Below are positions 2,923-35,108 of a DNA stretch of 64,000 bases, one piece after another; within the stretch, counting starts at the first letter, position 1, and every line of letters begins with the position of its first letter. Source of the DNA: Streptomyces sp. NBC_01276. Lineage in GTDB: Bacteria; Actinomycetota; Actinomycetes; Streptomycetales; Streptomycetaceae. The position numbers and the translations under genes are program-made. The stretch covers positions 1,240,001 through 1,304,000 of the forward strand of contig NZ_CP108442.1 of assembly GCF_041435355.1 (NCBI RefSeq), given 5' to 3'. Under the pieces are notes generated by a model, which saw only the letters and a program-made list of their open reading frames with translations, did not search any database and was not told the DNA's origin.

Positions 2923-4227
2923 ATGTCCGGTGCCACCACCCCGCTCCCCGCTCCTCCGGTGGCCGTGTGGGCGGTGGGGCGGCGGCCGTGGCGGTTCCTG
3001 CGGTCCTGGTGGCCGTGGCGGTGCTGGGCGTACCTGGGCAGCGGGTTCCCCCTCGGGTACGCGGTACTGGTCGCCCTGGTGCTGCTCGTGGGCCTCGGGG
3101 TGGTGCTGGCGGTCGCCGGGGTCGGACTCCTGCTGCTGCTCGCCGCCGTCGCCGGTGCCGTGCCGCTGGCCGAGCTGGAGCGGCGCAGGCTCCGGTGGGT
3201 CGAGCCCGCTCCCGTCGCCGATCCGCACACCTCGCTCGCCGGGGCCGGCGCCGCCGCCTGGCTGCGCACCCGGCTGCGGGAACGGGCCACCTGGCGGGAG
3301 TTGGGCTACGCCGCCCTGCTGGGGGCCGTGTTCGGCGCGGCCGGTTTCGGGGTGCTGGCGCTGGTGGCGTTCTCGCTGCTCCTCGTGGTGTCACCGGTCG
3401 TCGTGTGGGCGCTGGCCCCGGAGCCGGTGATGCTGATACCCGGCCGGGCCGTGACGGGGCCCCTGGAGGCGCTGGGCGGGACGGCCGCCGGGCTGGCGGG
3501 GCTGGTGCTCGCGGCGTACGCGGGGGCGCTGATCGCCGGGGCGCAGGTGAAGACGGCCCGGCTGCTGCTCGGGCCGCGCGAGGAGGACGGCCGGGTGCTG
3601 GAGCTGACCCGGTCGCGGGTCCGGCTGGTGGAGGCCTTCGAGGCGGAACGGCGGCGCATCGAACGGGACCTGCACGACGGCGCCCAGCAACAACTGGTCG
3701 CCCTCAGCATGACCCTGGGCCTCGCGGAGCTGCGGCTGCGCGGGATCCCGGACGCGGCGGAGGCCACGGCCCTGGTCGGCCGGGGGCGCGCCGAGGCGAA
3801 GCTGGCGCTGGAGCAGCTGCGGGACCTGGTGCGCGGCATCCACCCCCAGGTGCTGACCGACCACGGCCTGGCGGCGGCCGTCGCCGAGGTGGCGCTGCGC
3901 CATCCCGTCCCGGTCACGGTGGACCTCGGCGGCCTGCCGCGGCTGCCCGAACCCGTGGAGACGACCGCCTACTTCACCGTCACCGAGGCCCTCGCCAACG
4001 CCGCCAAGCACAGCGGCGCGGCGCACGTCGGCGTCGCCGGTAGGGTCGAGGGGGACCGGCTCACTCTCACCATCACGGACGACGGCCGCGGCGGGGCCGA
4101 TCCCGGCGCGGGAGCGGGCCTGGCGGGTCTCGCGGACAGGGTGGCGATGTTGCAGGGCAGGCTGACGGTGTCCAGTCCGGTGGGCGGTCCGACGGAACTG
4201 CGCGTGGAGGTCCCGTGCTCCGTGTGA
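2923..4227 (+). CDS. Two-component sensor histidine kinase (NarL-type)
   Basis: A 434-residue membrane kinase. The N-terminal half has about four to six hydrophobic helices (roughly residues 30-75, 125-165 and 185-210) in a sensor domain without a large extracytoplasmic loop. The HisKA_3 dimerisation region contains RRIERDLHDGAQQQLVALSM with the phospho-accepting histidine near residue 251. The HATPase region follows with EALANAAKHSGA (N box), TITDDGRGGA and GLAGLADR. It should phosphorylate the response regulator encoded by the overlapping next gene (13-base overlap). A TAGGCT hexamer seven bases before the ATG hints at a leaderless or near-leaderless mRNA. The signal is unknown. Confidence 0.93.
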   Translation: MSGATTPLPAPPVAVWAVGRRPWRFLRSWWPWRCWAYLGSGFPLGYAVLVALVLLVGLGVVLAVAGVGLLLLLAAVAGAVPLAELERRRLRWVEPAPVADPHTSLAGAGAAAWLRTRLRERATWRELGYAALLGAVFGAAGFGVLALVAFSLLLVVSPVVVWALAPEPVMLIPGRAVTGPLEALGGTAAGLAGLVLAAYAGALIAGAQVKTARLLLGPREEDGRVLELTRSRVRLVEAFEAERRRIERDLHDGAQQQLVALSMTLGLAELRLRGIPDAAEATALVGRGRAEAKLALEQLRDLVRGIHPQVLTDHGLAAAVAEVALRHPVPVTVDLGGLPRLPEPVETTAYFTVTEALANAAKHSGAAHVGVAGRVEGDRLTLTITDDGRGGADPGAGAGLAGLADRVAMLQGRLTVSSPVGGPTELRVEVPCSV

Positions 4228-4877
4228 TCCTCGCGGAGGACTCCGTGCTGCTGCGTGCCGGCCTGACCGAACTGCTGGCCCTCGGCGGCCACCGGGTCCT
4301 CGCCGCCGTGGGCGACGCCCCCGCCCTCCTGGAGGCGGTGGAGGCCGAGCGGCCCGACGTGGTCGTCACGGACGTCCGGATGCCGCCCGGACTGAGCGAC
4401 GAGGGGCTGCGGGCCGCGCTCGAACTGCGCTCCCGGGACGCCTCGTTGCCGGTCCTGGTGCTCTCCCAGTACGTGGCGACGGCGTACGCGGCCCAGCTGT
4501 TCACCGGCGCGTCGGCGGCCGGGCTGGGCTACCTGCTCAAGGACCGGGTCGGCGAGGTGACCGAGTTCCTCGACGCCCTGGAACGGGTCCACGGCGGCCA
4601 GACGGTCATCGACCCGGAGGTGGTGCGCGTCCTGCTCGCGCGGCCATCGGCCCCGGACCGTCCGCTGGCCCGCCTCACCCCCCGCGAGCGCGAGGTGCTC
4701 GCGCTGATGGCCGAGGGGCTCAACAACCAGGCCCTGGCGGCCCGCCTGTTCATCACCGAGGCCTCCGTCGTCAAGCACGCGGGCAGCATCTTCACGAAGC
4801 TGGACCTGGACCCGACGGAGGGCAACCGCCGCGTCCTGGCGGTCCTGGCCCACCTGCGCGGGCTGGAGGCCGCATAG
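4215..4877 (+). CDS. Two-component response regulator, NarL/LuxR type
   Basis: A 220-residue regulator. The receiver domain (residues 1-120) has the acidic pair at ILAEDS, the phospho-accepting Asp53 in VVVTDVRMPP, the conserved Ser/Thr region VLVLSQY and the Lys in YLLKDRV. The C-terminal LuxR-type helix-turn-helix starts at LTPREREVLALMAEGLNN (about residue 148) and continues through ASVVKHAGSIFTKL. It overlaps the kinase gene by 13 bases, so translation is likely coupled. Phosphorylation should promote dimerisation and DNA binding; targets are unknown and could include the operon itself. The GTG start at 4215 gives a full receiver domain. Confidence 0.93.
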   Translation: MLRVILAEDSVLLRAGLTELLALGGHRVLAAVGDAPALLEAVEAERPDVVVTDVRMPPGLSDEGLRAALELRSRDASLPVLVLSQYVATAYAAQLFTGASAAGLGYLLKDRVGEVTEFLDALERVHGGQTVIDPEVVRVLLARPSAPDRPLARLTPREREVLALMAEGLNNQALAARLFITEASVVKHAGSIFTKLDLDPTEGNRRVLAVLAHLRGLEAA

Positions 4878-4882
4878 GGGAC

Positions 4883-4901
4883 CGGGCCGCCGCGCGGCCC
4901 G
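4883..4901. terminator. Hairpin after the two-component operon
   Basis: CGGGCCG and CGGCCCG flank a five-base loop, with extra outer pairing by ACCGGG and CCCGGT. There is no U-tract. It sits between two converging genes and could terminate from both sides. Confidence 0.4.
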
Positions 4902-4912
4902 CCCCGGTCGCC

Positions 4913-5332
4913 TCAGTCGAACGGGTCGATCTCGACGTGCCCCGGGGAGGCCGAGCAGACCTGCCACGTCTCGCCCGTGCGGTGCAGGTCGAGGGAGTGG
5001 GCGACGGCGGGGCCGTCGCCGGGCCTGAGGTCGATGTTGACCGTGGCCTCTCCGCCGCCCTCGGTGGAGGAGATGATCCGGTGCCCGAACCGCGCTCCGT
5101 GACGGCGCAGTTCCGCCGCCGGGTCGGCCGTGCCCGCGCAGGCGCCCGGGGGTGCGGCGCCGCCCGCGCCGACGGTGTCCAGGTACGCGTCCACGGCACG
5201 GTGCAGCGGGCTGCGGGCGGGATCGCCCGCCCGCACCGCCGCCGTCACCCCGACGGCGGTCGCCGCCAGGATCAGCAGCACACCCCCGACGAGCACCACC
5301 CTGCCGGTGCGGACCGGCCGTCCTGCGAACAC
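4913..5332 (-). CDS. Small single-pass membrane protein, unknown function
   Basis: A 139-residue protein. Residues 12-32 form one transmembrane helix (VVLVGGVLLILAATAVGVTA), followed by an extracytoplasmic domain with Cys residues (GACAG, WQVCSA) and strand-like segments such as ATVNIDLRP and SLDLHRTGETWQV. This resembles small lumazine-binding or DUF4878-like lipoprotein domains of actinomycetes, but I cannot assign it. The GTG at 5332 has a GGAGG four bases upstream. It converges with the response regulator gene. Function is unknown. Confidence 0.6.
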   Translation of the reverse strand: MFAGRPVRTGRVVLVGGVLLILAATAVGVTAAVRAGDPARSPLHRAVDAYLDTVGAGGAAPPGACAGTADPAAELRRHGARFGHRIISSTEGGGEATVNIDLRPGDGPAVAHSLDLHRTGETWQVCSASPGHVEIDPFD

Positions 5333-5462
5333 GATGCCTCCGTGGGCCCGCCGAGAAGTCCTTGTCCCCTGGGGGACGCGGTACGGCCCGCAGCCGTTCC
5401 CCGGCGAGCGGTGCGGCCTCGGGGCGCCGCAGGTGGAACCGCGCGGTCCGCCCACGCCGGGG

Positions 5463-6716
5463 TCACCGTGCGCGCAGCGTTCCCCCGGAGCGCCCGGCCC
5501 CCTCGCCGGCGGCCGATGAGCGGGCCACGACCCGCGAGGGGCCGCCGGTGGCCGGCGGGGTCGCGCAGCGCGCCCACACCACGAGCAGCAGCGGCAGTGC
5601 CAGGTAGCCGAAGCGGCCCGCCGGGGCCAGCAGGAAGGCCAGGGTCAGCCCCAGCGCGAGCCGGTCGGCGGCGGCGACGACCGTGCGCGGCGGGCGCGCC
5701 CACAGGGAGAGCGCCACCCCCAGTCCGGCCAGGGCCAGCAGGGCCACCGTCGCGTACCAGCCCCACGGTCCGAGTCCGGCGAGCAGGTGCCCCGGCAGGG
5801 GACTGCTCGCCGGGGTCGGCACGTCCGCCCGGCCCGTCGGGAAGGCGAAGACCTGCCGCCACAGTTCCGCCGGCTGGAGCAGCACCCCCGGGAGCACCAG
5901 CACCGCCGTGCCGGACACCGCCACCGCCGCGCAGCGCACCGCCGCCCGCGGGCCGCGACAGGCCCCGAGCACGGCGACGGCCACCGCCACCGCGGGCAGC
6001 GCGGTCCACTTCATGGCACACGCCGCCGCGAGCGCCGCCCCGGCCACCGCCGGACGGCCGGAGACGGCCGCCGCGAGCGCCAGGCAGCACAGCCCCGCCA
6101 GCGGCAGGTCCACCCCGCTCACCACCAGCGGAAGGGCCACCACCGGAGAGGCCACCAGCAGCGGGAGCAGCGGCGAGGGGCGACTGCCGAGCATCCGGCG
6201 GCCGGCCCACAGGGAGGTGAACAGGGCCGCCGCGCACCACATCCGGGCGTCGCCGAGGAGGCGGACCGCCCAGCCGTCGCCGCCGCCCAGCAGGGCGCGG
6301 GGGAGGCCGAGGAGGGCCGTGCCGGGCAGGTAGGGGGTGTACTCCTCGACTCCGGAGGGCCGGTCCACGTAGAGGCGGCCGGAATCCAGCAGGAGCCGCC
6401 CGGACCGTTCGATCACCCCCACCTCCGACTGGCCCTGACCGGTGAGGACCAGGTACAGCAGCGGCAGGACGACGGCTCCGGTCAGGGCCGCGGCCAGCGC
6501 CGAGCGCGGGCGGCCCACGGCGGTGGCCCCGGCGGCCACCAGGTATCCCGCGGCCGCGCAGCAGCCCCACAGCCGGTGCGGGCCGAGCGGGGAGAACAGG
6601 GGGAACGCCAGCGCCCAGACGGCCGCGAGCAGCCAGCCTGCGGTCCACCGGACGGTGGACGAGGCGGGCAGGAGACGGGGGGCCACGGGCGGGCGCGGGC
6701 GGGCGGAAGGGGTCAT
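5463..6716 (-). CDS. Polytopic membrane glycosyltransferase (GT87/DUF2029-like)
   Basis: A 417-residue protein with about ten hydrophobic helices, starting WTAGWLLAAVWALAFPLF. The extracytoplasmic loop after the second or third helix contains DSGRLYVDRPSGVEEYTPYL, in the position where polyprenyl-phosphate-mannose-dependent GT-C enzymes carry acidic residues. A later loop includes FAFPTGRADVPTPAS. Family members such as the mycobacterial alpha-mannosyltransferases use a lipid-linked sugar donor on the outer membrane face. The exact activity is unassigned. The ATG at 6716 is chosen because residues further upstream are Gly/Arg-rich and not membrane-like. It appears to be monocistronic. Confidence 0.75.
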   Translation of the reverse strand: MTPSARPRPPVAPRLLPASSTVRWTAGWLLAAVWALAFPLFSPLGPHRLWGCCAAAGYLVAAGATAVGRPRSALAAALTGAVVLPLLYLVLTGQGQSEVGVIERSGRLLLDSGRLYVDRPSGVEEYTPYLPGTALLGLPRALLGGGDGWAVRLLGDARMWCAAALFTSLWAGRRMLGSRPSPLLPLLVASPVVALPLVVSGVDLPLAGLCCLALAAAVSGRPAVAGAALAAACAMKWTALPAVAVAVAVLGACRGPRAAVRCAAVAVSGTAVLVLPGVLLQPAELWRQVFAFPTGRADVPTPASSPLPGHLLAGLGPWGWYATVALLALAGLGVALSLWARPPRTVVAAADRLALGLTLAFLLAPAGRFGYLALPLLLVVWARCATPPATGGPSRVVARSSAAGEGAGRSGGTLRAR

Positions 6717-6856
6717 GGACCCATTCCAGCCGCGCGGCCCCCCTCGGGTCTGCACGCCCAGGCGGAGCCTTCGTGGTGGGGTTTTCCCTACCCCGGCGGG
6801 TCCCGGGCCGGATCCCTCGCCCCGGCCGGGCCCGCGGGCCGCGGCCGCCGTGCACG

Positions 6857-6892
6857 CCGAAGGGCGCGACCTCGGCGGGTCGCGCCCTTCGG
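6857..6892. terminator. Terminator hairpin after metG
   Basis: Perfect 15-bp inverted repeat, CCGAAGGGCGCGACC paired with GGTCGCGCCCTTCGG around a six-base loop, 23 bases past the metG stop. It has no long U-tract, as is usual in high-GC actinomycetes. Confidence 0.75.
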
Positions 6893-6914
6893 GGAGCCGT
6901 TGGCGGCGGGGCCG

Positions 6915-8630
6915 TCAGGCCTCCGGGGAACCGCCGAAGCGCTCGCGGTAGGACTCCAGGTCCTCCTCGGTGATCCTCGCGAAGAGCACCGGCGGCACGG
7001 TGAACGGGGTCCCGGCCGGGACCGCGTCCAGCGCCTTGGCCTGCTCCGGGGTCACCCACACCGCCGTGTCGTCCGCGAGGTCGAACGCGGAGCGCATGGC
7101 GCGCGCGGAGGCCGGGATGAAGGGCTCGGAGACCACCGAGTAGAGGTGGATGAGGTTCATCGCGGTGCGCAGGGTGAGGGCCGCGCCCTCCAGGTCGGTC
7201 TTGACCTCCAGCCAGGGGGCCTTCTCGTCGAGGTACGCGTTCCCGGCCGACCACAGGGCGCGCAGCGCGGCCGCCGCCTTGCGGTACTGGAGGGCCTCCA
7301 TGTGGCCCTCGTACTCGGCGAGGAGCTCGGCGATCTGCTCGCCCAGCTTGGCCTCGGCCGCACCGGCGGCGGTGCCCGCGGGGACCTCGTCGCCGAACTT
7401 CTTGCGGGAGAAGGTCAGCACCCGGTTGACGAAGTTGCCGAGGGTGCCGCCGAGGTCCTTGTTGACCGTGGCGGCGAAGTGCTCCCACGTGAACGACGAG
7501 TCGTCCGACTCGGGCGCGTTCGCGATGAGGAAGTAGCGCCAGAAGTCGGCCGGGAGGATCTCCAGCGCCTGGTCGGTGAAGACGCCGCGCTTCTGCGAGG
7601 TGGAGAACTTGCCGCCGTAGTACGTCAGCCAGTTGAAGGCCTTGACGTAGTCGACCTTCTTCCACGGCTCGCGGGTGGCCAGCTGCGTGGCGGGGAACAT
7701 CACCGTGTGGAACGGGACGTTGTCCTTCGCCATGAACTGGGTGTAGCGGACGTCCTCGGCCTCGTACCACCAGGCCTTGTAGTCGCGGTTCGCCGGGTCC
7801 AGGTCGGCCCACTCCTTGGTGGCGCCGATGTACTCGATCGGGGCGTCGAACCAGACGTAGAAGACCTTGCCCTCGGCGGCCAGTTCGGGCCACGTGTCGG
7901 CGGGCACCGGGACGCCCCAGTCGAGGTCACGGGTGATGGCGCGGTCGTGCAGGCCCTCGGTCAGCCACTTGCGGGCGATGGAGGAGGCGAGCTGCGGCCA
8001 CTCCTCCTCGTGCTCGGCGACCCAGGCCTCGACCTCGTGCTGGAGCGCGGACTGGCGCAGGAACAGGTGCTTGGTCTCGCGGACCTCCAGCTCGGTGGAG
8101 CCGGAGATGGCCGAGCGGGGCTCGATCAGGTCCGTGGGGTCCAGGACGCGGGTGCAGTTCTCGCACTGGTCGCCGCGGGCCTTGTCGTAACCGCAGTGCG
8201 GGCAGGTGCCCTCGACGTAGCGGTCCGGCAGGAAGCGGCCGTCGACCGGCGAGTAGACCTGCCGGATCGCCCGCTCCTCGATGAAGCCGTTCTCCTGGAG
8301 CCTGCGCGCGAAGTGCTGGGTGATCTCGCGGTTCTGCTCGGAGGAGCTGCGGCCGAAGTAGTCGAAGGACAGCTCGAAGCCGTCGTAGACCGCCTTCTGG
8401 GCGTCGTGCGCCTGCGCGCAGAACTCGGCGACCGAGATCCCGGCCTCCTTGGCGGCGAGTTCGGCGGGGGTGCCGTGCTCGTCGGTGGCGCAGATGTACA
8501 GGACGTCGTGGCCGCGCTGGCGGAGGTACCGGGAGTACACATCCGCCGGAAGCATCGACCCGACCATGTTGCCCAGGTGCTTGATCCCGTTGATGTAGGG
8601 AAGCGCGCTGGTGATCAGGTGTCGAGCCAT
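6915..8630 (-). CDS. metG: Methionyl-tRNA synthetase
   Basis: A 571-residue class I aminoacyl-tRNA synthetase that charges tRNA-Met. The HIGH-like motif region is [17 protein letters not shown] at the extreme N-terminus. The zinc knuckle is present as [17 protein letters not shown]. The second catalytic loop reads KFSTSQKRG rather than the textbook KMSKS, a form I expect in actinobacterial MetG. The C-terminal anticodon-binding helical bundle follows ([16 protein letters not shown] onward), with no dimerisation extension. The ATG at 8630 ([15 protein letters not shown]) is chosen because GGAG lies nine bases upstream and the fold begins there. A strong hairpin 140 bases upstream separates it from the preceding gene. 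Confidence 0.97.
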
Positions 8631-8959
8631 CCTCGGATGCTCCATTCGTTTCATTTGTACGGGTTCATGCGTAACGGCGTGCCGTGACGGATTGTGATGC
8701 GGTTCATCGTATCGAACCGCCGAAAGGGCACGCGCCCGCATTTCGTCCGGGTGGACGTGACGCAAAAACAGCGAGGGCGGTGACCTCTCCGTCACGGCCC
8801 TCGCAATGGGCCCATGCTACAGCCGCGGTACGGGGCCCCCGACCGGTGTCCGGGGGACGGGCACCCCGCGCCGGGCGGCGCCCGCCCGGCCGCGCCGGGT
8901 GCCGCTTCCGAGCCCTCCGGGTGCGGCGTCCGCCCCCGCCGGGTGCCGCCGGCGGCCCC
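8631..8959. other. metG leader and intergenic region
   Basis: This gap contains the metG promoter and leader plus a strong minus-strand terminator at 8771-8804 (listed separately). The part from 8640 to 8770 is relatively AT-rich and is the likely metG promoter. I see no T-box or S-box architecture. Positions 8805-8959 are very GC-rich and hold nothing I can identify. Confidence 0.5.
8771..8804 (-). terminator. Intrinsic terminator upstream of metG
   Basis: On the minus strand, GCGAGGGC-CGTGAC and GTCACC-GCCCTCGC form a 14-position stem with one mismatch and a six-base loop, followed by TGTTTTTGCG. The U-tract gives direction. It lies between the frameshifted gene and metG, so it most likely ends the former's transcript; an attenuator in a long metG leader is the alternative. 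Confidence 0.75.
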
Positions 8960-10934
8960 TCAGTCGCGGCCGCCCGCCCCTCCGTCGAGGGCGGTGATCC
9001 GGGCGCCGCCGGTGAGCCGGCCCGTCAGGGAGACGGGGGCGCCCTCGGGTCCGGCGGGGGCGGTCAGGCTGCGGCCGTTCGCCTCCGCCCGGACGGCGCC
9101 GCTCGCGGTGAGGGCGGCGACCTCGCGGCTCCCCGCGGCGAGCTGGTACCAGCGGCCCGCTGGGGAACGCCACCGGGTGCCCACGAGGAGGTGCTGGCCG
9201 AAGCGGCCGCAGGCGGCCGTGGACCGCGCCCGGACCACCTCCTGAGGGGGCCCGGCGGGCGGGCGCAGCCGTACGAGGACGTCGCCGGGGCCGGCCCAGC
9301 CGGAGGCCCGGGTACAGCTCCAGGTGGCCCGGCCCGCGCCGTCGGGGAGTTCGGTTTCGGCGAAGTCCCAGACGTTCACGGCCCGGACGCCGCCGCCGCT
9401 CAGCTCGCGCAGCCCGCAGGCGCCCGGAGCCCAGGCGGCGCGGGCGGCCGGGCCGGTGGCCTCGCGGGGCTGCCGGGCGGGCACGGCGGCGGGGCCGTCG
9501 GGGAGCGGGGTGTGGGTGAGGTGGACGGGGGTGAGCCCGCCCAGGTCGGCCAGGACGAAGGAGTGCTTCTCGACGATGCGCCGGGAGGACGTCAGTTCGA
9601 GCGCGGGCCAGGCGTCGCAGGCCCCGGTGCCACGGGGGACGGCGGCCGGGGCCGTGACCCCGTCGGCGGCCACGGCCAGGGGCCGGGCCGGGTCCCCGGC
9701 GCGGAGCAGGTCGACGGTGGCGGCGGTGGCGATCCAGGGCGCGAGCAGGTAGCGCGCGGCCGGGCCGGCCCGGTCCCGGGTCAGGGCGAGGGCGGCCGCG
9801 GTGGTGACGCCCGCCTCGTCGGTACGGGCGAAGTCGAGGGTGCGCGGGCCGCGCGGGCCGCGCGGGGTCTCGGTGTAGCGCACCACGCGGTCGCCGTCGA
9901 GCAGGACCACGACCACCGTCGCGGGGCCGGGCCCGTCCCCCGGCCCCGCGACGGCGGCCGCTCCTCCGGGCGCCTCCGCTGCGGTCGCCCCGGCCGTCGA
10001 CGCCGCCGCCGTGCCCGCCGCCACACCCGTCCCCCGCTCCGCGCCGGGCACGTTCCCGGCGTACAGCAGCTGGGGCGGGTGCCCCGGCGGATCGGTCGGG
10101 GTGCCGGGCGCGGCCGTCGTCCGGACCCCGCCGGGCCGGGCCGCCCAGGCGCCCAGGGCCCGGGTGAGCAGGGCCCGGTCGCCGGTCCGGGCGCCCCGGG
10201 CGGGCCAGGCGGTGAAGTCCACGCGGGCGGTGTCGGCCCAGGCCCCGGCCGGGACCCTGCCCAGCCGGGCGGGGTCGAGCACCCCGGCGGCGACCGGTCC
10301 GGCCGACGGCGCCGCTTCGGTGCGCGGGGGCGAGGAGTCGGCCGCGAGGACCCCGTAGACCAGGGCCGGCACGGCCGCCGCGGCCCACCCGGCACGGACC
10401 CCGCGACGGCGGCGCAGCAGGTCGGTGGGGCGGGCGCTGACCACGCTGGCGTCGAACTCCGGGTTCCGCAGGGCCGGCAGGAGCGTTTCCCCCACGGGTA
10501 CGGCCAGCGCCTCGCGCACGGCGTCCGCCGCTCCGGCCGCGCCCGCGGACCCGGCCGCGCCCGCCGCGCCCAGCACCCGGGCGACCGCCTCCTCGGGCAG
10601 TCCGTCGATCCGGTGCAGGACGAAGGCGGCCCGGACCGGGCCCGCCGGGGCTGTCGGGGCCGCCCGGTCCGCCGGGGTCGCGGCCGCCGGGCCCTCGGGG
10701 CAGGGCGTGCTGGACGGCGCGATGCGCGAGGAGGACCCGGGTGTGCCGGCCCAGGGAGGGCGGGAGGGTCACGTAGGCGAGGCGGACCAGCCGGGGGTAC
10801 TGCTCGACGAGTACCGCCTCGGCCCGTTCGAGGGCCGTCCGCCCCGGGGGCGCGGGCGGCGCCGGGTACGGAGGGGACACGGGCTCGGCCGGCCGGCCGG
10901 GCTGCCCGGAGCCGGAACGCGGTGTTGTGGCCAC
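8960..10934 (-). pseudogene. Sigma-like/membrane protein gene with an apparent one-base frameshift
   Basis: The 5' part (GTG at 10934) encodes a Pro-rich head and then YPRLVRLAYVTLPPSLGRHTR and VLLAHRAVQHALP, reminiscent of the first helices of ECF sigma region 2. The frame is lost near 10697-10700, a run of four C on the coding strand. Removing one C joins it to the frame carrying RAAFVLHRIDGLPEEAVARVLG (sigma-4-like), a transmembrane helix (GWAAAAVPALVYGVLA) and a long extracytoplasmic C-terminal domain with several Trp and Cys residues, ending at 8960. The rejoined product would be 657 residues. Either this is a real frameshift or a base-calling error in a GC-rich run. Intact relatives in Streptomyces would favour an error. 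Function is unknown. Confidence 0.65.
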
Positions 10935-13668: not shown

Positions 13669-13794
13669 TCCCTCCTCCACGACAGCGACCGGCGAGCTTG
13701 CCGGGACCCGGTCGGCCGGGGTCCGGTAGATTCGATCAACAGCCGATCGGCGAGAGAAGCGGCCGGGTGCCGCGCACGTCACAGGGGGCGGGGA

Positions 13795-16700
13795 GTGCGG
13801 AGCCGACAGGGGCAGGACCACCGCCGGGAAGCGCTGCTGGAATGCTGGCGCGCCATCGAGCTGTTCGGTCCGCCCGGCATCCCGGCATTACCCCGACGGC
13901 GTCCCGCCGCACGGTCCGGGCCGCGGAGCGAGTACGTCGTCGACCTGACGCCGCTGCCCGGACGTGTGACGCCGCAGCTGCCGTGGGACGCCGACCATCC
14001 GGATACGGGCGCGCGACGTGCACCGGCCGGCCGGATGTGGCGGCACGAAATCTACTGCGGGGTCTTCGATCTGGAGCTGCTCCGCCAGGCGATGATCGCC
14101 GTACTGCCCGCGGGGACCGATCCGGATCCCGGTGTGCCGCAGTCCGAGCTGACGCTGCCGGGCCAGAGCGCGATGTTCGCCTTGGTCGTGGACGATGAGG
14201 GGCGACCGGTGGAGGACACGTCCGTGATCTCCGCCTGCGCCTGGGCGACCGGCCGCCTCTTCGATCCGGGACCCTCCGCACCCGGTTGGCTGGACGGCTT
14301 CGAGGACCTCGACGAGGCGTTCGGCGCGGCGATCGACGAGCTGACGGCCACCGCGATCCCCTACGGCTCCGCCGCCCCCGACCCCGGCACGGCGTACGAG
14401 CGGCGGCCCGGCTCCGGCCATGGGCCGGGAACCGCGGCCGGGGCCGACCGCGTGAGCTGGCAGCGCCTGCTCGGCGAGATCCTGGGCGGCGCCGCCGTCG
14501 GCGCGGTCGGGGCCCTGTTCGGCGAGGTCGCCGGCGCCGCCCTGCAGGGCGCGGCCGAGCCCCTGGTGCGCCGCGCCGCCGACTGGGCCGCGGCCCGCCG
14601 ACCTGCCGGGGACCAAGCGGAATCCGAGCATCCGGACGATGGCGGGAGCATTCCCGAGCGGGCACCGGCCGGCTCCGCGGACGTGTTCGAGGCGTACGGG
14701 GGCGACTCCGGTCCCCGTGCGCTCGGGTTCGCCGATCTCGTCGCCCTGACCGCGCAGATCGCCGACCTGTGCGGGGTGCAGGACCGTCTGCGGCCCCGGG
14801 TGGTCCGGGTACGGAGCAGGCTGGTCCCCCGGCCTCGGGACCCCCGGGCGAAGGCGGCCGCGGCGGCGCCTTTCCTGAACAGCCTGCTCCCTCCCGACCT
14901 CGCGCGCGTGGCCGAAGCTGTCGGCAAGGGGATCGGACCGGCTCTGGGCGCGTATCTGTCCGAGCACGATGCCGTTGCCGCGGGGATGCGGACCGATGTG
15001 CGCCGGGAGCGCGGAGCCGTCCTGGCCGGGGTGGATCCGGAGCTGGTTCCGGCCGGGCGGTGGCCCGCACCGGCGGATCGCCCGCTCGCGCTGAGCCAGC
15101 AGTTCGCGGTCGACCGGATGCTCGCCGACCGCGCGGGCACCGAGGGCGGGCTGTTCTCCGTGAACGGCCCGCCCGGCACGGGCAAGACGACGATGTTGCG
15201 CGACCTGGTCGCCGCACTGGTGGTCGAGCGGGCGGCGGTGCTGGCCACGTTCGACCGGCCCGGACAGGCATTCACCGGTCCGGCGTGGCGGGGTAAGGAC
15301 CGCCAGGGCAGGCACGCGCGGTTCGTGTCGCGGCTCGACCCCCGGCTGACCGGGTTCGAGATCGTGGTCGCCTCCTCCAACAACGGCGCGGTCGAGAACA
15401 TCACCGCCGAACTGCCCGGCATCGGCGCGCTCGGTGAGCACTGGCACGGCGGCCCCGACCATTTCTCCGACCTCGCCTCCGCCCTCCTCGGCGGCCCCGC
15501 GTGGGGGTTGGTCGCGGCGGTGCTCGGCAACAAGACCAACCGCAAGGAGTTCGGCGACCGGTTCTGGTGGGGGCGGCTGCCCAAGAAGGAGGCCGACGCC
15601 CGGTCCGCGGCGGGGCTGCCACCGCTGCGCGGCATGCAGTTCGTCCTGAGCGACTGGATCCCGCCGAGGACCGCGCCCGGCAGCCGCCCCTCCGCCCCGG
15701 CGGACCGGGACGCCGCGGCCGGGCCCGCCGAGCCCGTGCCGTCGTGGACCGCCGCCGTAGCCGCCTTCCGCACCGCCCGGGCCGAGGTCGAGCGGCTGCG
15801 TGTCGGGCGTGCCCGGCTGGCCTCGGCGCTGGCGGCCGTCGAGTCCCCGGCGGCCGCGCAGCGTATCGCGGACCTGGAAGCCGCCGTCCCCCGCGCAGAC
15901 CAGCAGGTCACCGCCGCGACGGCCGCCCTGGAACGGGCCGCCGCCGCCACCGGGGCAGCACGGAATGCCACCGCCGCGGCCGAGGCCGGACACCGAACGG
16001 CCACCGCGCACGTACCACGGGCCCGGCAGGAGCTGGCCGCCGCCCGTGCGGACCTGTCGGCCGCCCGTGAGCTGGCCGCACACCACCGCGAGTACGTCAC
16101 CGCGCTCACTGCCCACCGGGACGCTCCACCTGCCGTCGAACGGGGCCTGCGCGCCGGGCTGCGGCGCCTGCTGCAGAGCTCCGCCGACCGGCAGGCGGCC
16201 GAATCGCGGCAGGAACGCGCCGACGCCGAGCTCGCGCGATCGCTCGTCCAGCAGCGCGCTTCCCTCGACAGCTCCCTGGAGCAGGTCGCCGCCGCCGTAC
16301 GCGCCGAGTCCCTGGCCGCGGGCCGGAGCTCCTGGGCCGCCACCACCGTCGACGAAGCGGCCGCCGTCCTCACCACGGCCCTCGCACACGAACGGACCGC
16401 GCACGCCCGGCAGGCCGCGGCGGACACCGTGCTGCGGCGGGCCCGGCAGGCCGCCGAGGCGGTCCGCCACGATCTTCGGGCCGCCGTGACCGAGCTCGAC
16501 GGACGCCACCACGAGCTGAGGCAGGCGGCTCGGACGCTCCCCTCACTGCCCCTCGGCTGGCGGCACCTCGACGAAGCCGATCAGGAACTCGGCTCCCCCT
16601 GGTCCGACGAGGCGTGGTCCACCGCGCGCAGTGACCTGTTCCTGCGCGCTCTCGACCTGCACCGAGCCTTCGTGGCCGGGGCCGCCAAGAAGGTCCGGGG

Positions 16701-17760
16701 CAATCTCCAGGTCCTCGTGGAGCTGATGGCCGGGACGAACGGGCCGCTGCCGGACGAAGAGGTCGAGCACGCCTGGCAGACCCTCTTCCTCCTGGTCCCC
16801 GTCGTCTCCACCACGTTCTCCTCCGTCGGCAGCATGTTCGCGCGCCTCGGCCGGGAGTCGATCGGCTGGCTGCTCGTCGACGAGGCCGGGCAGGCCACCC
16901 CGCAGGCCGCCGTGGGCGCGCTGTGGCGGGCCCGCCGTGCCGTGCTGGTCGGCGATCCGCTCCAGCTGGAGCCCGTGGTCACCATGCCCACGGCTCTGCA
17001 GCGCCGGCTGCTGCGCGCCTACGGCGTCGACGAACGGTGGCTGCCCTCGGCCACCTCGGCCCAGGCCGTGGCCGACCGGACCAACCGCTACGGCACCTAC
17101 CTGCCGACCCCCGACGGGGACGACGAGCACGTCTGGGTGGGTTCACCGTTGCGCGTCCACCGCCGCTGCGAGGAACCGATGTTCAGCGTCAGCAATGAGG
17201 TCGCGTACGGCGGCCTCATGGTCTACGGCACCGGGCAACAGGCGTTCCCCGACGGGGAACGGGACGGTCTGCTGCCCAGCCGCTGGCTGAACACCGATGA
17301 CCCCGCCCGCCCGGCCGACGCCCCGTGGGGCGAACGCGACCGCCGTGCCTTCGAATTCGTCCTCGACCTCTTGGACCGGCACGGGGTGGGTGTCGAGCGC
17401 CTACGCGTCATCGCCCCGTTCCGGGCCCTCGTCGCCGAGTGCAAGAGGGTCTGCGCCGGCCGTGAAGGCTGGACCGCCGAGCTCCTCGACGAACGCTGCG
17501 CCACCGTCCACCGGGCACAGGGCAAGGAAGCCGACGTCGTCATCCTCGTGCTCGGCGGTGGCCGCCCCGGAGCCCGCGCGTGGGCGGCGCGCACCCCGCA
17601 TCTGCTCAACGTCGCCGCGAGCCGTGCCAAGCGCCGCCTCTACGTCATCGGTGAGCGCGGTTTGTGGGCCCCGCTCCGCCATTTCGATGTCCTGGCCGAC
17701 GAACTGGCGGAATTCGACCACGTCCGCGACCGCACGACCTGGCCGCCGGAGGGCGACTGA
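13795..17760 (+). CDS. SF1 (UPF1/DNA2-like) helicase with coiled-coil insertion; TTA codon
   Basis: A 1321-residue superfamily 1 helicase/ATPase. Motifs in order: Q-like SQQFAVDRML before Walker A GPPGTGKTT (458-466); Walker B DEAGQ (1029-1033); motif III GDPLQLEP (1053-1060); motif V-type HRAQGKEADVV (from 1239); motif VI VAASRAKRRL (from 1273). Between Walker A and B is an insertion of about 560 residues, with an Ala/Arg/Glu-rich coiled coil at about 650-910. The N-terminal 420 residues are unassigned and contain a hydrophobic glycine-zipper stretch (LLGEILGGAAVGAVGALFGE, about 225-245). Codon 32 is TTA (13888-13890), the rare bldA-decoded leucine codon. It stands alone next to tRNA genes. 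A role in defence or RNA/DNA surveillance is inference. Confidence 0.85.
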   Translation: MRSRQGQDHRREALLECWRAIELFGPPGIPALPRRRPAARSGPRSEYVVDLTPLPGRVTPQLPWDADHPDTGARRAPAGRMWRHEIYCGVFDLELLRQAMIAVLPAGTDPDPGVPQSELTLPGQSAMFALVVDDEGRPVEDTSVISACAWATGRLFDPGPSAPGWLDGFEDLDEAFGAAIDELTATAIPYGSAAPDPGTAYERRPGSGHGPGTAAGADRVSWQRLLGEILGGAAVGAVGALFGEVAGAALQGAAEPLVRRAADWAAARRPAGDQAESEHPDDGGSIPERAPAGSADVFEAYGGDSGPRALGFADLVALTAQIADLCGVQDRLRPRVVRVRSRLVPRPRDPRAKAAAAAPFLNSLLPPDLARVAEAVGKGIGPALGAYLSEHDAVAAGMRTDVRRERGAVLAGVDPELVPAGRWPAPADRPLALSQQFAVDRMLADRAGTEGGLFSVNGPPGTGKTTMLRDLVAALVVERAAVLATFDRPGQAFTGPAWRGKDRQGRHARFVSRLDPRLTGFEIVVASSNNGAVENITAELPGIGALGEHWHGGPDHFSDLASALLGGPAWGLVAAVLGNKTNRKEFGDRFWWGRLPKKEADARSAAGLPPLRGMQFVLSDWIPPRTAPGSRPSAPADRDAAAGPAEPVPSWTAAVAAFRTARAEVERLRVGRARLASALAAVESPAAAQRIADLEAAVPRADQQVTAATAALERAAAATGAARNATAAAEAGHRTATAHVPRARQELAAARADLSAARELAAHHREYVTALTAHRDAPPAVERGLRAGLRRLLQSSADRQAAESRQERADAELARSLVQQRASLDSSLEQVAAAVRAESLAAGRSSWAATTVDEAAAVLTTALAHERTAHARQAAADTVLRRARQAAEAVRHDLRAAVTELDGRHHELRQAARTLPSLPLGWRHLDEADQELGSPWSDEAWSTARSDLFLRALDLHRAFVAGAAKKVRGNLQVLVELMAGTNGPLPDEEVEHAWQTLFLLVPVVSTTFSSVGSMFARLGRESIGWLLVDEAGQATPQAAVGALWRARRAVLVGDPLQLEPVVTMPTALQRRLLRAYGVDERWLPSATSAQAVADRTNRYGTYLPTPDGDDEHVWVGSPLRVHRRCEEPMFSVSNEVAYGGLMVYGTGQQAFPDGERDGLLPSRWLNTDDPARPADAPWGERDRRAFEFVLDLLDRHGVGVERLRVIAPFRALVAECKRVCAGREGWTAELLDERCATVHRAQGKEADVVILVLGGGRPGARAWAARTPHLLNVAASRAKRRLYVIGERGLWAPLRHFDVLADELAEFDHVRDRTTWPPEGD

Positions 17761-17841
17761 CCGCAGCCGGGTGCGGCCCGGCGTGGGCACGCGGGTGACC
17801 AGTCCAAACGCCCGGCCGCAGCCGACCGGTTCACCACAGAC

Positions 17842-17888
17842 GAAAGAGCCGGCCAGAGCGACGTCGCGTCGCTCTGGCCGGCTCTTTC
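17842..17888. terminator. Strong bidirectional terminator hairpin
   Basis: A perfect 21-bp inverted repeat (arms 17842-17862 and 17868-17888) around a five-base loop. On either strand it ends in CTCTTTC. It lies downstream of both the rightward helicase and the leftward first tRNA-Leu gene and can serve both. Confidence 0.85.
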
Positions 17889-17905
17889 AGGTCGTCCGAC
17901 CACGG

Positions 17906-17990
17906 TGTCCGAGGGGGGACTTGAACCCCCACGCCCGATAAAGGGCACTAGCACCTCAAGCTAGCGCGTCTGCCATTCCGCCACCCGGAC
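17906..17990 (-). tRNA. tRNA-Leu (anticodon GAG), copy 1
   Basis: An 85-base class II tRNA. Acceptor stem GTCCGGG pairs with CTCGGAC (one G-U). The anticodon arm is CTAGC-TTGAGGT-GCTAG, giving anticodon GAG, which reads CUC and CUU. The long variable arm GCCC-TTTAT-CGGGC and the T arm GGGGG-TTCAAGT-CCCCC are intact. CCA is not encoded (ACCG follows the acceptor). It is identical to the copy 321 bases upstream. Confidence 0.96.
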
Positions 17991-18219: not shown

Positions 18220-18226
18220 CTGCTGG

Positions 18227-18311
18227 TGTCCGAGGGGGGACTTGAACCCCCACGCCCGATAAAGGGCACTAGCACCTCAAGCTAGCGCGTCTGCCATTCC
18301 GCCACCCGGAC
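18227..18311 (-). tRNA. tRNA-Leu (anticodon GAG), copy 2
   Basis: Same 85-base sequence as the copy at 17906-17990, with all class II tRNA-Leu arms intact and anticodon GAG. A similar leader is seen upstream of both copies on the minus strand (18014-18043 and 18330-18359 share most positions, including TGTCGC), which suggests that the gene was duplicated together with part of its promoter or leader. Confidence 0.96.
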
Positions 18312-18563: not shown

Positions 18564-18731
18564 CTAGGGGGTGTCTGACGGATATCCGCGGCGTCGCGAC
18601 GCCCGGCACGCACTCTCGCCGCACCGACCGAAAGCCCAAGTACGTCCAGTACGCGGGCTTCCGGTCGGCACGCCGAGAGCACGCACCGGACGCCGCTCCT
18701 TCCCCACGGACATCCGTCAGACACCCCCTAG
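18564..18731. mobile_element. 168-bp MITE-like palindromic element
   Basis: Perfect 20-bp terminal inverted repeats CTAGGGGGTGTCTGACGGAT at 18564-18583 and 18712-18731. The interior is also imperfectly palindromic: CCGACCGAAAGCCC at 18624-18637 pairs with GGGCTTCCGGTCGG at 18655-18668 with one mismatch, and further pairing flanks it. There is no open reading frame of note. The outer CTAG on both sides could be a 4-bp target duplication with inner ends GGGGTGTCTGACGGAT, as some IS5-family elements make; that is inference. The right CTAG provides the fabH stop codon. Confidence 0.75.
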
Positions 18732-19669
18732 GGGCAGTGGATGACCTGGCCGGCGTAGGAGAGGTTGCCGCCGAAGCCGAAGAGCAGGACCGGGGCGCCG
18801 GAGGGGATCTCGCCCCGCTGGACCAGTTTGGAGAGGGCCATCGGGATGCTGGCCGCCGAGGTGTTGCCGGAGTCGACGACGTCGCGTGCGACCACGGCGT
18901 TCACGGCGCCGATCCTGGCGGCGAGCGGCTCGATGATCCGCAGGTTCGCCTGGTGCAGGACGACCCCCGCCAGGTCCTCGGGGGTGATCCCGGCCTTTTC
19001 GCAGACCTTGCGGGCGAGCGGCGGGAGCTGGCTGGTGGTCCAGCGGTAGACGGACTGGCCCTCCTGCGCGAAGACGGGCGGGGAGCCCTCGATGCGCACG
19101 GCGTGGCCCATCTCCGGCACCGAGCCCCACAGGACGGGGCCGATGCCCGGCTCCGCGCTGGCCTCGACGACGGCCGCGCCCGCGCCGTCGCCGGTCAGCA
19201 CGCAGGTGGTGCGGTCGGCGTAGTCGGTGATCTCGGTCATCTTGTCGGCGCCGATGACCAGGGCGCGGGTCGCGGCGCCGGCCCGGATCGCGTGGTCGGC
19301 GGTGGCCAGGGCGTGGGTGAAGCCCGAGCACACGACGTTGATGTCCATCACCGCGGGCGCCCCGCCCATGCCCAGCTTCGCGGCGACCCGCGCGGCCATG
19401 TTGGGGGAACGGTCGATGGCGGTGGAGGTGGCCACCAGAACGAGGTCGACGTCGTCCGGGATCAGACCGGCGTTCGCGAGGGCCTTGCCGGCGGCCTGGT
19501 AGGCCAGCTCGTCCACGGGCTCCTCGGGACCCGCGACGTGCCGGGTCCGGATGCCGACGCGCGACCGGATCCACTCGTCGTTGGTGTCGACCATGGCCGC
19601 GAGGTCCTCGTTGGTGAGCACTTTCGCGGGCTGGTAGTGCCCTAGCGCCACCACGCGTGAACCGGTCAT
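18728..19669 (-). CDS. fabH: 3-oxoacyl-ACP synthase III (FabH family)
   Basis: A 313-residue thiolase-fold condensing enzyme. The catalytic triad of KAS III enzymes is complete: Cys114 in VVCSGFTHA, His239 in LHQANLR and Asn269 in DSGNTSAAS. The C-terminal glycine motif [13 protein letters not shown] is present. KAS III enzymes condense an acyl-CoA starter with malonyl-ACP to begin fatty acid or polyketide chains. No fabD, acpP or fabF lies nearby, so this is probably an extra copy rather than the main one. The stop codon falls inside a MITE-like repeat, which may have replaced the original end. It is divergent from fdhD across 206 bases. Confidence 0.92.
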
Positions 19670-32839: not shown

Positions 32840-33145
32840 TCAGCTCGCGCCGTGGGCGGGTGCGAGGGATTCGACGCGTTCGGCGAGGGCGAAGTCCTTC
32901 TCGGTGACCAGGCCGCCGGCGTCGTGGCTGTTCACCGACAGGCGCACGGTGTCGTAGCCCAGGGTGAGGTCCGAGTGGTGGTTCAACTCGTCCTGCACCA
33001 CGGTGACGTGGGTGACCAGCGCACTGGCGGCCCGGTGCGTGGCCAGCCGGTAGGTGCGGACGATGTGGTCGTCCTCGAAGGACCAGCCGGGGAGTTCCCG
33101 CAGCCGGTCCTCGATCTCCTTCTGCGAAAGCGGTTCGCTTGGCAT
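32840..33145 (-). CDS. 4a-hydroxytetrahydrobiopterin dehydratase (PCD/DCoH)
   Basis: A 101-residue pterin-4a-carbinolamine dehydratase. The active-site pattern of the family is present in ELNHHSDLTLGYDTVRLSV and SHDAGGLVTEKD: the double His, the aromatic Tyr position and the third His-Asp pair. The N-terminus EIEDRLRELPGWSFEDD is also typical. It dehydrates 4a-hydroxytetrahydropterin made by aromatic amino acid hydroxylases. No such hydroxylase is in this window, so its partner lies elsewhere, or it acts in another pterin context. The ATG at 33145 gives the normal length. It stands alone and is divergent from the oxidoreductase gene. Confidence 0.92.
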   Translation of the reverse strand: MPSEPLSQKEIEDRLRELPGWSFEDDHIVRTYRLATHRAASALVTHVTVVQDELNHHSDLTLGYDTVRLSVNSHDAGGLVTEKDFALAERVESLAPAHGAS

Positions 33146-33314
33146 CCGCGTTCTCCTTCCCCGTGACGTGTGGTCAGTTTCCCATAGGTGCGCCGGATCG
33201 AACCTTTCGCGCCATAGTGCGACCGGGTGCTCCCGCGCAGCTTCCGGGCCCCGGGCGGGCGCCCTATGCTCCTGCGCCGGACAGGCGTTACCACCGGTAA
33301 CAAGGAGGCGGGGC

Positions 33315-35108
33315 ATGGCGGCTCGTACGGGCGGTTCCAGGCGCGCGTTCATCGCGGGCGCGGCGGCGACCACGGCGGGCGCCCTGTCGGCCGCGGGGGC
33401 GGGCACCGCGCGGGCGGCCGCCGGCTCCGGCGCCGGCGCCGCGGCGGACCGGCGCACCGTCGCGGTCCTCGGCGGCGGGGTGGCCGGGATGACCGCGGCG
33501 CACGAGCTCGCCGAGCGCGGGTACGCCGTCACGGTGTACGAACGCCGGGCGCTCGGGGGCAAGGCCCGCAGCATGGACGTCCCCGGCAGCGCCCGGGGCG
33601 GGCGGCGCCCCCTGCCGGCGGAGCACGGATTCCGCTTCATCCCCGGCATCTACCACAACCTGCCCGACACCATGCGGCGCATCCCGTTCCCCGGGAACCC
33701 CAACGGGGTGTGGGACAACCTCGTCGCCCCCCGGGAGATGATGTTCGCCCGGTCGGGCGGACGCGAGGACCTGCGCGCCCCCGTCCCCTGGCCCGGCCAC
33801 TCCCCCGCCGGGCTGACGCCCGAGGAGATCGGCCGCGCCCTGACCGGGATCCTGCAGACCCTGGTCCGGCTGCCCGCGCACGAGACGGCGTACTTCGTCA
33901 ACCGCGTGCTCGTCTTCCTCACCAGCTGCGACGAGCGTCGCGAGGAGGTGTGGGAGCGCACCCCGTGGTGGGAGTTCACCCGGGCGGCCCGGATGTCGAC
34001 CGAGTACCAGCGCATCCTGGCGATCGGCGTCACCCGCAACATCGTGGCCACCAAGGCCGAGGAGGCCTCCACCCGTACGGTGGGCACCCTGGGCGAGGCC
34101 TTCGTCTTCAACCTCCTGGGGCGCGGCGCCGACGGCCCGCCGGACCGGATCCTCAACCTCCCGACCAACGAGGCGTGGATCACTCCGTGGGAGACCCATC
34201 TGCGCTCCCTCGGAGTGGAGTTCAGGATCGGCTGGACCGTCGAGGAGGTCCGCTGCGACGGCGGCCGGGTGAGCGGGGTCGCGGTGCTGGAGCCGTCCGG
34301 GGCGCGCCGCACGGTCACCGCCGACCACTACGTCAGCGCGCTGCCCGTCGAACACGCCCGCCGCACCTGGAGCCCGGCCCTGCGGGCCGCGGACCCGATG
34401 CTGGGGCGCTGCGACGCGCTCCGGACGGACTGGATGACCGGCATCCAGTTCTACCTCACCGAACGCGCCCCGCTCGTCCACGGACACCTCAACTGCATCG
34501 ACTCCCCCTGGTCGTTGACGGCCATCCAGCAAGCCGAACACTGGCCCTCCCGTGACTTCCCCGCCGACTACGGCGACGGGACGGCCGTGGACTGCCTGTC
34601 CGTGGACGTCTCCGAATGGGACAGGCCCGGGATCCTGTACGGGAAGACGGCCAAGGAGTGCACGCGCGAGGAGGTGGCCCGCGAGGTGTGGGCGCAGCTG
34701 AAGGCCTCCCTGAACGACACCGGGGCCGCTCCGCTCCGGGACGCCACGCTGCACTCCTGGTTCCTGGACCCGGGGGTCGACAGCCTCGGCACGCCGCACC
34801 CCACCAACCAGGACGAACTGCTGATCCATCCCACCGGCACCTTCCACAACCGGCCGAGCGCGGGAACCCGCGTCCCCAACTTCTTCCTCAGCGGGGACTA
34901 CGTGGCGGTCGACATCGACCTCGCGACGATGGAGGGCGCCAACGCCTCGGCCCGTGCGGCGGTCAACGCCCTGCTGGACCGGGAGGGTTCGGCGGCGGAC
35001 CGGTGCACCGTCACCGGTCTCTACCGGGCCCCCGAGGTGGAGTCGGCCAGGCGGCACGACCTGTGGCGCCACCGTCTCGGACTGCGGAACGTCTTCGACG
35101 TGGGCTGA
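33315..35108 (+). CDS. Tat-exported FAD-dependent amine oxidase-like protein
   Basis: A 597-residue flavoprotein. The N-terminus carries a twin-arginine signal (SRRAFIAGAAATTAGAL, Arg9-Arg10) ending at an Ala-rich cleavage site. The dinucleotide-binding motif VAVLGGGVAGMTAAHELAER starts near residue 49, followed by VYERRALGGKARS. The C-terminal FAD motif is FFLSGDYVAVDIDLATMEGA. It resembles hydroxysqualene dehydroxylase or phytoene desaturase-like amine oxidases, including EHGFRFIPGIYHNLPDTM. The ATG at 33315 has AAGGAGG six bases upstream. Export of a pre-folded flavoprotein fits the Tat route. The substrate is unknown; no carotenoid or hopanoid genes are nearby. Confidence 0.88.
   Translation: MAARTGGSRRAFIAGAAATTAGALSAAGAGTARAAAGSGAGAAADRRTVAVLGGGVAGMTAAHELAERGYAVTVYERRALGGKARSMDVPGSARGGRRPLPAEHGFRFIPGIYHNLPDTMRRIPFPGNPNGVWDNLVAPREMMFARSGGREDLRAPVPWPGHSPAGLTPEEIGRALTGILQTLVRLPAHETAYFVNRVLVFLTSCDERREEVWERTPWWEFTRAARMSTEYQRILAIGVTRNIVATKAEEASTRTVGTLGEAFVFNLLGRGADGPPDRILNLPTNEAWITPWETHLRSLGVEFRIGWTVEEVRCDGGRVSGVAVLEPSGARRTVTADHYVSALPVEHARRTWSPALRAADPMLGRCDALRTDWMTGIQFYLTERAPLVHGHLNCIDSPWSLTAIQQAEHWPSRDFPADYGDGTAVDCLSVDVSEWDRPGILYGKTAKECTREEVAREVWAQLKASLNDTGAAPLRDATLHSWFLDPGVDSLGTPHPTNQDELLIHPTGTFHNRPSAGTRVPNFFLSGDYVAVDIDLATMEGANASARAAVNALLDREGSAADRCTVTGLYRAPEVESARRHDLWRHRLGLRNVFDVG

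Follow-up and report, generated by a model that had tools for sequence, protein, structure and literature searches.

The DNA under study is a 64-kb window of Streptomyces sp. NBC_01276, and all positions below are coordinates of this window. It carries, on the forward strand, a gene for a superfamily 1 (SF1) helicase (13795..17760), present in one copy in the source genome, which begins with GTG and encodes 1321 residues. The Pfam families AAA_11, AAA_12 and Viral_helicase1 mark its helicase core, and in PADLOC it matches the anti-phage protein MkoC (E 3.5e-55). Judged by its sequence and its relatives, the helicase probably represents a variant form of phage defence in bacteria that is still uncharacterised.

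The helicase and its locus

The motifs of an active-type SF1 helicase had been called intact in a preliminary description of this DNA, and motif inspection bears this out. SQQFAV (residues 434-439), Walker A GPPGTGKTT (458-466; 15166..15192), motif Ia (524-536), Walker B or motif II LLVDEAGQATPQ (1026-1037; 16870..16905), VLVGDPLQLEPV (1050-1061), motif IV (1205-1213), motif V (1236-1250) and motif VI LNVAASRAKRRLYVIG (1271-1286; 17605..17652) are all present, under the names which we take to belong to these residue ranges. Only 35 residues remain after motif VI, and a PLD domain is absent.

The GTG start is credible, because a W-R-A-x-E-L-F-x-P motif at about residues 18-26 recurs across phyla in the alignments, and residues 1-80 as a whole are alignable with relatives from other phyla. 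Some deposited orthologues are annotated as starting at the methionine that is residue 81, which leaves out both this motif and a TTA codon discussed below. Upstream of residue 430, the sole Pfam match is DUF7382, below threshold (19.8 of 27.4 bits). Two conserved parts were delimited in this region by alignment. The first (residues 1-199; 13795..14391) appears in three alignments and has an AlphaFold predicted local distance difference test (pLDDT) score of 71-96, in ten-residue blocks, up to residue 190; the second (305-440; 14707..15114) contains FLNS and GRWP motifs. The N-terminus thus remains unassigned, as first described, but it is not peculiar to this protein, since the same domain occurs in relatives from Pseudomonas, Burkholderia and Bacteroidota. 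Fold searches with the domain gave no convincing match in the PDB, and none at E <= 0.001 in a viral library.

Between the two parts lies the glycine-zipper stretch noticed earlier (residues 222-260; 14458..14574), in which W222, E228, L230, G231, A233, A234, A237, G243, P256 and R260 are invariant in an alignment of 28 chosen sequences. By crude scores, with 25 rows unmeasurable by the hydropathy script, the zipper was seen only in one actinobacterial clade, where its sequence varies. The other insert first noticed, at residues 656-905 (15760..16509), is coiled-coil-like by its heptad pattern and by a 3.5-residue periodicity, as measured by a home-made score rather than a published predictor, in which a period of 5.0 residues scored nearly equally. 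This insert is reduced in length in a second group of relatives in the alignment.

Codon 32 is TTA (13888..13890), as had been reported, but it is not the only one in the window: by a home-made gene call, 2 of 47 open reading frames (ORFs) contain a TTA, the second at codon 79 of ORF 33054-35108, where it may precede the true start. In those three of the five other orthologues which could be placed by script (L125, L126, L128), the column of codon 32 reads TTG, CTG and CTC. Some TTA is found in three of the six orthologues, the others being elsewhere, at codon 59 in L128 and codon 1162 in L129, and a TTA is present in 2 of 12 sister genes examined. This pattern would fit an accessory status and not a conserved control by bldA; such control, which the codon had been thought to mark, is unsupported because the TTA is not conserved in orthologues.

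Downstream of the helicase gene, two tRNA-Leu(GAG) genes were called on the reverse strand (17904..17990 and 18224..18311); by self-blastn, these two copies share 87% identity over 140 bp. Between them and the helicase gene, a 47-bp inverted repeat (17842..17888; 94%), found in the same way, is a probable terminator. Further right, a KAS III/fdhD stretch has a DNA match in all 37 same-genus genomes, source included, and in the eight relatives whose stretches were fetched the similarity to the window never extends left of the tRNA genes. A single tRNA-Leu lies near KAS III in two of these eight (G003 and G023), and the stretches of the other six contain none. The left-flank gene, which ends at 13668, has long matches in five genomes (G053, G041, G038, G045, G012), in none of which the helicase was found at E <= 1e-40. 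A search of the sampled genomes gave no clean empty site. In G012, whose right flank is the most similar sampled, about 286 kb separate this flank (8.451 Mb) from the left-flank gene (8.739 Mb). No integrase was found among 13 window neighbour ORFs by a Pfam scan. The adjacency of tandem tRNA genes, from which an accessory site had been proposed, is real, while their role as such a site is suggestive only: the adjacency recurs at one of five other loci, where the orthologue of G286 and a tRNA-Leu(GAG), oriented to each other as in the window, are 5.9 kb apart.

A separate observation concerns a 168-bp element (18564-18731), bounded by terminal inverted repeats that are nearly identical (CTAGGGGGTGTCTGACGGAT...); its end runs into the stop codon of the KAS III ORF as called (18728-19669, reverse strand). 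The 25-base repeat has 33 matches in the genome (17 forward and 16 reverse, with up to 2 mismatches), and 28 of them form 14 pairs with a spacing of 143 bp, as in a family resembling miniature inverted-repeat transposable elements.

Distribution and movement of the gene

Orthologues were searched with a 981-base DNA query in 392 sampled Streptomyces genomes at E <= 1e-40, a cut-off that remoter relatives escape. Six genomes, source included, match with 87-100% identity over 967-981 of the 981 bases; in 13 more, about half of the query is matched at 71-75%, and the remaining 373 gave no match. The gene is thus far from occupying one locus in nearly every Streptomyces, the outcome that had been named in advance as speaking against a defence role, and its flanks are not common to the six. 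The five other orthologues are 81-87% identical in protein sequence over nearly the full length. Among the best 120 of 1607 matching proteins, 104 show 64-93% identity, the named ones coming from Streptomyces or Kitasatospora, and the other 16 show 41-53%.

The family is much wider. The best 80 of 448 loci encoding relatives, identified by scanning genome contigs, come from Actinomycetota, Pseudomonadota, Bacteroidota and Bacillota, among others. A quick tree of the window protein and 74 of these loci (L021, L041, L045, L076, L077 and L081 were dropped) places the window protein within an actinobacterial clade of 17 rows (starred), the one in which the zipper was seen. Other architectures were seen among the relatives. 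Seven (L014, L015, L016, L018, L036, L057, L065) have, by eye, a different N-terminal segment (about RPYF...EL.HRST...) ahead of the helicase, and in one from a Legionella metagenome-assembled genome (L027:1516-5493) a DUF5710 domain (9.5e-17) is fused N-terminally to it. Three more (L055, L059, L062) extend for about 300-345 residues from the start of motif VI, and these long C-termini are possibly other effectors. HxKx4D was not found in any of the three, nor PLD by Pfam in L059 and L062, the two scanned; consequently, the tree holds no confirmed MkoC.

At all five other orthologous loci, the DNA ceases to resemble the window 75-100 bp 5' of the start codon and less than 20 bp 3' of the stop codon (blastn limits 13695-17762, 13720-17771, 13719-17763, 13701-17771 and 13720-17777). 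The unit in common (13720..17770) consists of the gene, some 75 bp ahead of it and some 10 bp past it. Searched at the protein level with 14 genes that neighbour the helicase in the window, these loci yielded nothing beyond low-identity (30-34%) matches of common families. The extra flanks, compared with the 64-kb window at E <= 1e-10 on both sides for G059, G073 and G268 and on one side for G286 and G320, had no DNA in common with it except the tRNA-Leu region in G286. Likewise, two Streptomycetaceae loci from named genomes (L002 and L003) have no flanking gene in common. At the left end of the unit, a promoter-like block GGTCCGGTAGATTCG (13720..13734, forward strand) is identical in five of six aligned upstream regions, L127 having one substitution; it includes TAGATT (13727-13732), which resembles a -10 box, and may be the promoter of the helicase gene. 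Next to the G320 orthologue, about 150 bp from its stop codon, lies a tyrosine integrase (L128:2401-3681; PF00589, 1.6e-19).

Relatives on plasmids were also found. A relative on a Kitasatospora plasmid, typed as non-mobilizable, is 68.6% identical over 76% of the length, and is probably broken, as its annotation splits it into several genes. Of the 583 plasmid records with local matches, 530 are predicted to be conjugative and 508 are from Klebsiella. One distant relative on a conjugative plasmid (L178:8861-11392) is preceded by an IS3 transposase and has traF/traH/traG within a few kb. Phage records gave three local matches, covering 27-29%. By these comparisons the helicase gene is accessory and mobile, and it would have arrived at its various loci either alone or carried as cargo.

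Neighbourhoods and proposed function

No recurrent partner gene was found around the relatives: among 1133 neighbour ORFs, no cluster is present in more than 9 of the 80 loci. Neighbour proteins were compared with PADLOC families. The 91 proteins from 13 sister-clade loci matched 153 families, the 31 from five orthologous loci matched 18 (one protein per family), and the 113 control proteins from the KAS III/fdhD locus of 8 genomes matched 46, the 25 shown being HamB-like, PDC-M23 and generic ones; these counts, inflated by related models, are not protein counts. Matches at E <= 1e-20 were obtained for 8 of the 20 sister neighbours scored one by one, at five loci (L133, L134, L135, L139, L140). 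An Hhe-like PDC-S37 gene lies about 120 bp from the helicase at L133; Cas8e/7e/5e of a type I-E Cas system and a type I methyltransferase-specificity protein are found at L134, STAND_TPR at L135 and PDC-S27 at L139. At L140, the sister SF1 helicase (3628-7089) is preceded, on the same strand and at a distance of about 60 bp, by a BrxHI-like helicase (7151-9001), in an operon-like arrangement. At no fewer than 5 of the 13 loci, the sister helicase thus has defence genes nearby. Near the orthologues, mad3, mad8, AriA, ATPase-Toprim and HEC-02A were discounted, being present in the control too. HEC-05 (8.6e-48) and PDC-M55C (3.6e-32), matched there too, are outside the 25 of 46 control families shown.

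On the strength of its kinship to MkoC and of the neighbours of the sister genes, a defence role is the most likely one, and we consider it rather likely that the gene is an accessory single-gene module, built on an MkoC-like SF1 helicase, which protects against phages or other invading elements. In such a module, the N-terminal domain and the helicase would jointly recognise an abnormal nucleic acid, such as foreign RNA, an RNA-DNA hybrid or damaged DNA, and ATP-driven movement, relayed via the coiled coil, would trigger an output. Without the PLD nuclease that MkoC has, the output would have to arise elsewhere. In the zipper clade, a speculative candidate is a glycine-zipper hairpin, which might form oligomers or insert into the membrane and halt the infected cell; this membrane step is doubtful. 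Equally tentative is the view of a distinct single-protein immunity, in which an SF1 sensor with an undescribed cross-phylum N-terminal domain would use the zipper as a membrane effector in place of the Mokosh nuclease.

A number of observations weigh against this interpretation. As for the zipper, 3 of 17 clade members are without it (L028, L030, L047), the AlphaFold confidence is low there, and its hydropathy is borderline, with a peak of 1.69 at residues 225-243 (19-residue Kyte-Doolittle window); two helicase-core segments reach 1.68 and 1.66, so that hydropathy alone cannot single it out. The MkoC profile, too, has about 240 positions ahead of its helicase, and these may be a diverged version of the N-terminal domain found here. 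As for the neighbourhoods, whole 20-kb stretches went into the control and the 7 nearest genes into the test; the 20 sister neighbours scored individually, out of 91, came from 10 of the 13 loci and were selected mainly for length, and 12 of them gave no match at E <= 1e-20. Four sister loci (L131, L132, L133, L140) share two flanking gene families, one of about 540 residues near the helicase; hence the 13 loci are not independent, and the sister clade is less mobile. HamB-like and PDC-M23 matches in the control neighbourhoods mean that finding a defence gene in variable Streptomyces DNA is not unusual. The orthologues' PADLOC matches include generic families common to the control, and their ten flanking proteins gave, by Pfam, seven ordinary families, one integrase and two without a match. 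The expectation that homologues would lie among defence genes therefore holds for several sisters and not for the orthologues themselves, whose immediate neighbours look mostly ordinary, and the defence-island evidence rests on the sister clade.

The ordinary neighbours would also suit an accessory helicase of RNA or DNA metabolism, active in RNA surveillance or replication-fork rescue and spread by transfer without any part in defence, and the core does resemble IGHMBP2-type and Dna2 helicases as well. We regard this as unlikely, in view of a rare and patchy distribution (6/392) as a lone unit at unrelated loci, of a defence helicase being the best family match by far, and of the defence genes near sister genes. 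The gene might instead be cargo serving a mobile element, aiding the transfer or replication of a plasmid or of an integrative and conjugative element, or the exclusion of rivals. The numerous conjugative plasmid records, the copy near traF/traH/traG and the integrase adjoining the G320 copy argue for it, as do the common flanking genes of L012, L035, L076 and L080, which presumably belong to conjugative elements, judging by resemblance. This explanation is nevertheless quite improbable: of the five other orthologues, two lie on contigs of several megabases and three on contigs of 37-388 kb, the scan of ten flanking proteins revealed no transfer gene, the Kitasatospora plasmid that carries a close relative is typed as non-mobilizable, and excluding rivals is itself a kind of defence.

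That the gene is a developmental or accessory one controlled by bldA is very unlikely. Codon 32 does lie within the conserved domain, and half of the orthologues have some TTA, but the synonymous codons in the three placed orthologues, the scattered position of the other TTAs and their scarcity among the sisters speak against it. As for a decaying or non-functional relic, the plasmid relative is split, L002 looks frameshifted and the L138 copy is in two ORFs; with a full-length window ORF, intact motifs and five orthologues conserved over nearly their entire length, this can be given hardly any probability.

Were the helicase a defence gene, labels such as 'AAA domain-containing protein' would hide a widespread family with an output unlike that of Mokosh, and a helicase core with exchangeable effectors would offer a testable model of how sensor helicases acquire outputs. 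That a gene should move singly, together with a promoter-like site of its own and with no element visible in most copies, is in itself an unexplained route of transfer.

Comparison with Mokosh and other helicases

A literature search by titles and abstract openings, most subscription papers being outside reach, gave no description of such a protein. The claim of an undescribed single-gene defence system holds only in part, since by its helicase core the protein groups with MkoC, the nearest described protein, which is anti-phage.

The likeness to other helicases is smaller. IGHMBP2-type and Dna2 helicases share the core motifs, but TIGR00376 scores 47.4 bits against a cut-off of 348.9, and the PDB match to Dna2 is limited to residues 996-1295. 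NF040671, the helicase of the PLuB system, scores 51 bits against a cut-off of 999. Hhe and PDC-S37, which are DUF4011 helicases, match weakly around motif II (4.9e-7 and 5e-4); DUF4011 was not found by Pfam, and the Hhe score is 21.6 bits against an NCBIfam cut-off of 2000. Mokosh type I, in which a helicase bearing a serine-threonine kinase domain is accompanied by a PLD partner gene, is approached through its MkoA helicase profile (7.6e-24), but the window protein is without a serine-threonine kinase domain by Pfam, and no PLD family was found among the 13 window neighbour ORFs.

Mokosh type II, according to the passages devoted to it in PMC11672841 and PMC10740426, combines a COG1112 helicase and, at the C-terminus, a PLD nuclease. 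The window protein has a COG1112-type core, with positions 390-946 of the 1136 of the MkoC profile aligned, the best stretch being residues 716-1290, and MkoC is the top PADLOC family for it and for all eight relatives tested. It also resembles a single-gene system, being a lone unit at all five orthologous loci with no partner found. It differs in having no C-terminal PLD, as judged from the Pfam scan, the lack of HxKx4D and the short tail past motif VI, and in an N-terminal domain and a glycine zipper that lie outside the stretch matched by MkoC. The core is thus kin to the Mokosh helicase, and the protein stands outside Mokosh type II because the nuclease is absent.

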